From Collinsella tanakaei (GTDB lineage Bacteria; Actinomycetota; Coriobacteriia; Coriobacteriales; Coriobacteriaceae): DNA of 64,000 bases. Position 1 is the stretch's first letter; the number at the start of each line of letters is the position of its first letter. Location of the stretch: assembly GCF_016902615.1 (NCBI RefSeq), contig NZ_JACJMB010000001.1:62001-126000 (forward strand), given 5' to 3'. Made by a program: the position numbers and the translations under genes. Positions 17,475-60,661 of this stretch are shown piece by piece. The notes below the pieces were generated by a model, which did no database searches, was not told the origin of the DNA, and worked only from the letters and a program-made list of their open reading frames with translations.

Positions 17475-17912
17475 CCCGCGGCACGGCCCGCGGCATGGGG
17501 AAGCGAAGCCGCCCGCGCGTGCAGGGGCTAAGCCGTCTGGAGCCGTCTGATGACTTCGTTATGCACCGGTTTTCGCGCATGCATCGAAAGCTTCGACGAC
17601 CGTGGACAAAAACGGCTTGAGTGGGACTCCTCACCGACTTGATAGGAAAATATTGGTCCACAAGACCAGATAATTATCTATCGGCTATATGATATATGCA
17701 GGTAGCGAACGATAATTATTCATCGCTCCTTACGGAGAGCTACGGCGCAGCGCTGCATACGTACCACTCGGCGCGTTTTTGTCCAAGCGCGTGCCCCTCA
17801 GCACATGAAAGCAAACCAGCGGGTCCGGACGTGCCCCGCACGCCCGGACCCGTATCCATTCCAGTGCACCGCCATGGTCGCGATCCGTATCGAAGCGCAA
17901 GCGCGCCGCGGC
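17475..17912. other. Convergent gap holding repeat copy A
   Basis: 438 bp between the convergent YgiQ and CPBP genes. It contains the 183-bp inverted-repeat element copy A (17603-17785) and otherwise nothing recognisable. The AT-rich interior of the element contrasts sharply with the surrounding GC-rich DNA. Confidence 0.7.
17603..17785. repeat. TIR element, copy A (183 bp)
   Basis: Flanked by imperfect 25-bp terminal inverted repeats. The left end is TGGACAAAAACGGCTTGAG and onward; the right end, reversed, is TGGACAAAAACGCGCCGAG and onward (20 of 25 match). The interior is AT-rich and carries GATAATTATCTATC and GATAATTATTCATC as an internal direct repeat. It shares about two-thirds of its bases with copy C. 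No ORF of note and no clear target duplication. Confidence 0.8.
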
Positions 17913-33823: not shown

Positions 33824-34057
33824 GGTTTTTCCTTCCTGTTCGGGATGTATGAGCTCTCGCTGCCGCCCAACATCACGTTCCGTGAGGGGCAGCACCGCGA
33901 GCGACTATAGCGAACAGGACGGGGCCGACGGGACGAGCGCAGCCATTCCTTTCAGATGCGTGACGCAGGCTTACGGCGCGCTGATGCACGATGTGCGCAA
34001 AACCTTACATCGCGCAGAACCGGGCAAGCAAACCTTTACGAACGGGGCGCTCGGGAT

Positions 34058-34147
34058 GTGAAATCAAAACAGGGGTCGACGCGGCAACCCTCCGCGGGCA
34101 AATCAACCCGTTGCGCGCGCGTGAAATAACCCCTGTTCTGGTTTCAC
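34058..34147. repeat. 19-bp inverted repeat, 52-nt spacer, upstream of the ABC operon
   Basis: The arm GTGAAATCAAAACAGGGGT (34058-34076) and the complement of 34129-34147 agree at 17 of 19 positions. The AT-containing arms stand out from the GC-rich surroundings. Either an operator pair, a leader RNA hairpin or the ends of a small element. Confidence 0.7.
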
Positions 34148-34150
34148 CTC

Positions 34151-52962: not shown

Positions 52963-53128
52963 GAAACCACGGTAGACACCCCGCCGAACCGCCCTCCCGC
53001 CGGGCCCCGGGCAGGGACCTTGCCTGCCAGGTCCATCGCGCTTTGCGCTCAAACGACCTGGCAGGCAAGGTCCCTGCCCGGGGCCCGGCGGCACGAGGGC
53101 TTGCGGGGTGCCTACCGGCATGGGTTTC
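52963..53128. repeat. Giant imperfect palindrome with 37-bp perfect core
   Basis: Core arms 52997-53033 and 53055-53091 are perfect complements (37 bp, including AGGGACCTTGCCTGCCAGG). The 21-nt loop contains GCGCTTTGCGC, itself a mini-hairpin. Outward, pairing resumes with GCCCTC/GAGGGC, CACCCCGC/GCGGGGTG, GGTAG/CTACC and GAAACC/GGTTTC, separated by small bulges. It lies 105 bp before secA. Confidence 0.9.
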
Positions 53129-53252
53129 GGCGGGGTTTGGGGTCGAAAGTTGATTCGGACCGTAAGCCGTATGGCACCATACGTTGTGGGATGGGGTTGG
53201 GGGCGTTTTTATGCGTTCGATAATCGAACGAAGGGAGCGCGTCTGGGTGCCA

Positions 53253-53437
53253 GGGACAAAAACGCGTTGAATGGGACTCCACATCGCATCGGTAGGTTTG
53301 TTTTTAAGGCGAGGGGGGCACTTTTCATGCATGCTAGCCGGCGTTTGCGCAGGATTTATATGTTGTTTTATCCGTATCAATTGTTGCTCAGCGCCAACAC
53401 CCTCCTGTATAGGTCCCACTCAAAGCGTTTTTGTCCA
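53253..53437. repeat. TIR element, copy B (185 bp)
   Basis: Left end GGGACAAAAACGCGTTGAAT and onward; right end, reversed, TGGACAAAAACGCTTTGAGT and onward. Same total length as copies A and C but a more diverged interior, with a T-rich ATGTTGTTTTATCCG section. Non-coding. Confidence 0.78.
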
Positions 53438-60176: not shown

Positions 60177-60661
60177 GGCTGCATCCTCCTTGACATCGTT
60201 AGCACCCTCGCCCGCAGAAGGGGGGCGGTGCTTGGTAGCACATAACCGTATTAGTGTAGCCGAGTTACCGGGCGGGAGCCCCAAAATCGCGAGGTGCACG
60301 CAAACCCGCCGTTTCACGCGGTTTTATTCAGGGCGAAAAGGTGGCCCTCCCCCCGCCCTGGTGTCCACTGGACAAAAACGGTCTGAGTGGGACTTCACAC
60401 CGCTGCGATGGGTTTCTATTGCCCACGAAGTTGCGATAATTACTCATCAATCTGAAATAATAGAGCTGATAATAAGTGATAACTATTCATCGCTCAATGA
60501 GGACGTACGCAGTGCCGCGCTGCATACGTCCCACTCAACGCGTTTTTGTCCATCGGGCGACAAGACTGCCACTCGGAAGGGCCCGATCGGCGCGGTTATC
60601 GCGGCCGCATCGGTGCTGGCAGGCATGACGCCCCGTGCAACGCAGACAATGCGGACCCCGC
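60177..60661. other. Gap between tyrS and the U32 gene, holding repeat copy C
   Basis: 485 bp. It contains TIR element copy C (60369-60552) and, on the minus strand just ahead of tyrS, a plausible -10 GGCTACACT near 60250. About 110 bp between the element and the U32 stop shows nothing clear. Confidence 0.6.
60369..60552. repeat. TIR element, copy C (184 bp)
   Basis: Left end TGGACAAAAACGGTCTGAGT and onward; right end, reversed, TGGACAAAAACGCGTTGAGT and onward. The AT-rich interior has GATAATTACTCATC and GATAACTATTCATC as an internal direct repeat. The right half nearly matches copy A (for example CGCTGCATACGT). Non-coding. Confidence 0.82.

Follow-up and report, generated by a model that had tools for sequence, protein, structure and literature searches.

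Small intergenic elements with inverted ends and a shared core in Collinsella tanakaei and related genomes

Three intergenic elements in a 64-kb stretch of the Collinsella tanakaei genome (the window; Table 1) are best, if tentatively, explained as members of a persistent mosaic family of non-coding elements, similar to BIMEs and REPINs, served by a lineage-specific putative arm-binding enzyme and a conserved putative core factor. On the sequences compared, from bacteria that probably live in the gut, the internal core is the constant part of these elements and the inverted ends are the changeable part.

Table 1. Element copies in the window and their parts (window coordinates)
Feature	Position	Strand	Remark
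Copy A (C1a), 183 bp	17603..17785	+	Orthologous intergenic locus in G049 holds a 183-bp element with other ends
A, left inverted arm TGGACAAAAACGGCTTGAGTGGGAC	17603..17627	+	
A, right inverted arm	17761..17785	-	
A, box0 GTTATGCA	17558..17565	+	~45 bp upstream of left arm, outside inverted repeat
A, box1 TTGATAGG	17639..17646	+	Consensus RTRGGTTT; alignments A1-A3
A, core	17669..17725	+	Conserved core model R3
A, GATAATTATCTATC			At box2 position
A, GCAGGT	17698-17703		Core part
A, box3 TATTCA	17717-17722		Core part
A, box4 TGCATA	17754..17759	-	Adjoins right arm
Copy B (C1b), 185 bp	53253..53437	+	
B, left inverted arm	53253..53277	+	First base G
B, right inverted arm	53413..53437	-	
B, box0 TTTATGCG	53208..53215	+	
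B, box1 GGTAGGTTT	53291..53299	+	
B, core	53324..53374	+	
B, box2 TTCATGCA	53324-53331		Core part
B, GCAGGA	53349-53354		Core part
B, box3 TATCCG	53369-53374		Core part
Copy C (C1c), 184 bp	60369..60552	+	
C, left inverted arm	60369..60393	+	
C, right inverted arm	60528..60552	-	
C, box0 TTTATTCA	60323..60330	+	
C, box1 GATGGGTTTCT	60407..60417	+	
C, core	60435..60491	+	Direct repeat GATAATTACTCATC (60435-60448) and GATAACTATTCATC (60478-60491)
C, box4 TGCATA	60521..60526	-	

The three copies lie where the initial annotation placed them and have the lengths it gave, and separate gene calling agrees that all are intergenic. The 25-bp inverted ends are imperfect, and copy B starts with GGGAC rather than TGGAC. 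A and C are 71% identical over the full length, and the GATAATTA-TCATC direct repeat is present in both. Each arm has the structure TGGACAAAAACG-nnn-yGAGTGGGAC, with an unpaired, variable gap of 3–4 nt. With up to two mismatches TGGACAAAAACG matches nine times in the window against 1.5 expected (none of 100 shuffles reached nine), and six of these matches are element ends. The arms of A, B and C rank third to fifth by length among the inverted pairs of the whole 64 kb. A window scan for 20-bp arms spaced 150–260 bp around an AT-richer interior recovered only two of the three copies, the one at 17603 being missed because its arms contain too many mismatches. The window also contains a 22-nt inverted repeat, GATGTGAAATCAAAACAGGGGT, whose arms are separated by 52 nt (34055–34150), and a long near-perfect hairpin upstream of secA with 54-nt arms (85%; 52980–53108). 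In G008, a neighbouring species, the secA hairpin (C55, ~2048–2160) has retained the loop ATCGCGCT-TGCGCTCAAA-CGACC but has a largely different stem sequence, as though paired changes had reshaped the stem.

Searching the whole 2.45-Mb genome with the 25-bp ends, as had been proposed, reveals 14 copies with these ends (O-type) rather than the window's three. All are intergenic, and thirteen are 182–185 bp long, the other being 173 bp. Their left ends read [TG]GGACAAAAACG-nnn-yGAGTGGGACT, whereas the right ends lack the final T and almost always begin with T, such that the element has a direction. The same genome contains two copies with ends of the type found in the related species G049, and a single core with an inverted repeat of yet another type. 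The corresponding search among relatives (two mismatches; 45 genomes of the genus and 397 of the order) gave matches in the own genome only, and simple DNA searches found nothing in other species. Among 84,980 named genomes and viral contigs the exact 25-bp end has a sole match, a chance one within a single Clostridium/phage coding gene; other end types have no match in viral contigs, and the elements have none in plasmids or phages. There was no Rfam match at gathering thresholds either, and no paper was found; within the scope of these searches the earlier remark that the elements belong to no described family stands.

Models built from copies of the own genus share RTRGGTTT near the left arm, TTTTATGCA, GCAGGT and TATNCA; in most copies a pair of TATNCA boxes, 42 bp apart, brackets GCAGGT. 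Two further boxes are common to them: TGCATA close to the right arm, and TATGCA on the outer side of the left arm at a distance of ~45 bp. The idea that TATNCA is related to DnaA boxes was considered; in the first 8 kb of the first contigs of four relatives a single TTGTCCACA occurs, with neither a cluster of DnaA boxes nor a dnaA P-loop motif.

The two species nearest to the own genome, G049 and G008, carry elements whose core positions are unchanged and whose length is nearly so, with other ends. G049 has 17 copies with ends CAAAwnCGCGACTTTTGAGA, 177–180 bp between the chosen end bases (Q-type), and at the locus of copy A its element contains the same inner motifs; G008 has about 19 copies with GACAAAAACGCGAGTTTTGG ends and one O-type copy. 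The other 42 genus members gave no score with the full model. The end class thus differs between species, and sometimes within one genome, while core and overall spacing are kept. The intergenic region of copy B contains an R-type element in G008 and a different 192-bp inverted-repeat pair in G049. The latter (L112:9293–9484; G049 C13) repeats TAAAGTTAGTTCAGATATGC perfectly in inverted orientation at a spacing of 192 bp, with box1-like GGTGGG near both ends. Different end types within one intergenic region (A, C20, C78a; B in G008) may reflect change in place or independent insertion. In-place switching of ends within the own genus was considered; interior identities at shared loci (0.476, 0.422 and 0.357) are too near the background mean of 0.393 to establish common descent. 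Intergenic DNA at copies B and C aligns too poorly with that of relatives for a precise empty-site comparison. The two G049-type copies of the own genome (L177, L178; C32, C40) lie in ~3-kb stretches that are 95.6–95.9% identical to G049, whereas the other aligned blocks between the two genomes are 71–95% identical; recent recombination between species probably brought them in.

A 68-bp core model built from the own genus only (R3) also matches two species of another genus, with 14 matches in G199 (best E 4.4e-7) and seven in G201 (best E 8.2e-6). Most of these loci, when fetched, lie between unrelated 28-bp inverted ends that are 180–182 bp apart; the flanking inverted repeats are outside the R3 search. 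Seven G199 and seven G201 loci have the core between TGTGCAAATATTCGAGCTATGGACGATT and its inverse at this spacing. G199 has two other classes with other ends, 148 and 184–193 bp long, the longer consisting of repeated GTCGAAACTCTGG sites on both sides. In the P-class both arms lie on the same side of the core. Most of the solitary core matches checked in the own genus (own genome, G008, G013, G018, G049 and G057) have another inverted repeat of 129–209 bp around or beside the core, whereas the same check of three core matches in genera g18 and g21 found none. Some partial matches had been picked by an earlier model, which makes their core similarity partly selected, though the inverted repeats played no role in the search. 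At L287, L288 (G018), L290, L234 and L236 (G008) fully folded-back inverted repeats of 131–135 bp stand beside the core, ~33 bp from it where measured in core orientation; their loops contain CGCAGG (e.g. CCGCAGGATTCAACTGGG), and their arm sequences vary between species and within G018.

Four orthologous loci of G199 and G201, with flanking genes aligning at 72–85%, allow single elements to be compared. Each arm is identical at 24–27 of 28 positions and the length is kept, while the interiors, in their better orientation, have identities of 0.566, 0.760, 0.535 and 0.586 against 0.497 (sd 0.048) for non-orthologous pairs. Three of the four (0.535–0.586) are mostly near random, and thus ends and length have been kept while most of the interior drifted. 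In direct flipped and unflipped comparisons (automatic orientation labels being unreliable), L280 and L293 are identical at 144 of 181 positions flipped and 87 of 181 unflipped, and L283 and L303 at 109 flipped and 80 unflipped; the remaining two pairs have the same orientation. The left flanks of L280 and L293 run in the same direction and align straight up to and into the element end. Judged from these alignments, at two of the four loci the element lies in opposite orientation with respect to its flanks, flipped exactly between its ends. One further pair, L275 and L301, has interiors that are 71% alike in flanks without a match and is an apparent candidate relocation.

The arms look like separate DNA sites, since they vary independently and without covariation. 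The middle of the arm varies between O-type copies, and the two arms of one copy often differ there; same-copy O-type arms match at 296 of 350 positions, against 297 ± 3.4 when shuffled. The suggestion that the ends pair into a long RNA stem is therefore not borne out, as arms of the same copy pair no better than arms of different copies and covariation over the 25-pair stem is not above that of shuffles. RNAalifold found no further structure in the elements, and extending the inverted repeat into the flanks gave no significant pairing beyond 5 bp. Same-copy arms of the Q-type copies in G049 agree above shuffled arms (p 0.007), mostly at the outermost bases (by eye). Many Q-type copies contain a palindrome-like TAAGyGACnnnnnGTCrCTTA between box3 and the right arm (element positions ~125–150), with mismatches ill-suited to an RNA stem. 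One element (L185, G008 C1) has a tmRNA and a near-threshold Collinsella-1 RNA in its vicinity; Collinsella-1 RNA was rejected as the identity of the element, the match being to a different and unrelated locus. The occurrence of this RNA in a relative, along with gene content, points to Coriobacteriales.

None of 64 copies examined is inside a gene (simple codon-based gene caller). Gaps between convergent genes contain 22 of the 59 copies with a classified context; in two background stretches 11 of 92 gaps (≥100 bp) are of this kind. This excess is confined to the own genus (20 of 45; two of 14 in G199 and G201). Neighbouring genes share no common theme (by eye), and a regulon reading was rejected for this reason.

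A lineage-specific DNA-binding enzyme, transposase- or invertase-like, would act on the two inverted ends, while a conserved and probably DNA-bending factor would bind the core and fold the ~181–184 bp into a loop, bringing the ends together as a pair. Occasional movement by the end-binding enzyme would disperse the elements, and the host may benefit, e.g. at gene ends or through chromosome organisation. Such an arrangement would account for the inversions, for arms that vary independently instead of pairing, for the fixed length and for the helical spacing (42 bp being about four helical turns). Neither an enzyme nor a binding protein for ends or core was identified. The absence of target duplications, the position of box0 outside the arms and the P-class with both arms on one side of the core count against this explanation, and inversion could be passive recombination such as may occur at any 25–28 bp inverted repeat, four loci having been compared.

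It is possible, though we think it doubtful, that the elements are immobile host chromosomal sites, with a fast-evolving dedicated protein on the arms and a conserved one on the core, that organise or insulate the chromosome or the ends of transcription units, inversion being incidental. The conservation of ends at orthologous loci around interiors mostly near background, the preference for convergent gaps, and the mosaic arm and core arrangements, including the class that has GTCGAAACTCTGG sites repeated on either side, all agree with this, and the strong in-place conservation is no less expected of a host function than of a mobile one. Against it are the patchy presence among close species, the similar element apparently at different loci and the weak convergent bias in G199 and G201. 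Most predictions are common to both readings, and a mobile population is slightly preferred, since presence is patchy and one element seems to have relocated.

The initial annotation's suggestion of MITEs fits only in part, and ordinary decayed MITEs of an insertion sequence, immobile and functionless, are an unlikely and disfavoured explanation. Small size, an AT-rich and gene-free interior, terminal inverted repeats, intergenic position and a patchy spread among species all agree with MITEs. However, inspection by eye of 14 O-type and 16 Q-type copies revealed no target site duplication in their flanks, neutral decay would wear ends as fast as spacers, contrary to the arms at orthologous loci, and length and 42-bp box spacing are preserved across genera. 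The failure to find an autonomous O-type copy is a gap in the MITE reading in general but consistent with a decayed family; unpaired or long-range end pairs in the own genome (G000) are limited to coding or single weak matches, in a 92-contig assembly that may lack multi-copy transposons.

Bacteroides invertible promoters (invertons) are similar in length, share inverted ends within a genome and invert between them. That the elements are such phase-variation switches of one invertase is very unlikely, even with fixed length, ends common within a genome, an AT-rich interior and the inversions at two of four G199/G201 loci. They are not consistently upstream of genes, and the many copies between convergent genes have no gene start to drive; no promoter consensus or recombinase was recognised, the arms of many single copies differ mid-arm, and the neighbouring genes lack a theme. 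A structured RNA or bidirectional terminator with pairing ends is highly improbable, for although the arms could form a long stem and terminator-like hairpins precede box0 in some copies, there is neither covariation nor an Rfam match at the gathering threshold, and a search of six loci at E≤1 gave none to the elements.

REPINs with their RAYT transposases combine two inverted, highly conserved, lineage-specific short sequences with a less conserved spacer in a long-lived, dispersed intergenic population (PMC3116915, PMC8049555). The elements here have the same layout of inverted ends and spacer between genes, but their arms are not palindromic as REP units are and, in all end classes, lack a GTAG/CGTC-type tag; the two sequences of a REPIN stand closer together (71 bp between 16-mers for P. 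fluorescens GI) and copy number is far higher, and a core common to several REP classes is not described in the REPIN literature compared, whereas here the core is shared across end classes. BIMEs are intergenic mosaics in which inverted repeats and protein-binding sites are combined as modules (PMC2817692). The present elements likewise join inverted repeats and a core, as a putative protein site, between genes, but lack REP-like palindromes and appear in a different phylum. Some BIME types enclose an IHF site; the TATNCA/GCAGGT core does not match the IHF consensus. Correia elements (CREE/NEMIS) of Neisseria are small and AT-rich with ~24-bp terminal inverted repeats, the long form with an internal IHF site, and they have TA at their ends and produce target duplications (PMC2229807, table 1). 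Size class, AT-richness, inverted ends and a putative internal site are shared with them, but TA termini and TA target duplications are absent, and unlike in Correia elements the ends change between species around one core. The family is thus filed as a variant of the small-repeat kind that resembles BIMEs, REPINs and Correia elements in its working and is a member of no named family, because the defining features tested (palindromic REP units, TA termini, target duplications) fail.

The small bacterial repeats known so far are mostly defined by their ends, whereas here the core is constant and the ends differ between close relatives, and single copies can be traced at orthologous loci even in inverted state. 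The elements might, though this is rather less probable, represent a dispersed nucleoprotein site of a new kind, with a core constant across at least two genera and arms replaced or re-evolving genome-wide with a dedicated DNA-binding protein, giving species-specific arms on the same architecture. If confirmed, the family would provide a natural series for joint specificity change of a DNA-binding protein and its dispersed target sites, and a marker family for genomes without such repeats on record in the literature searched.
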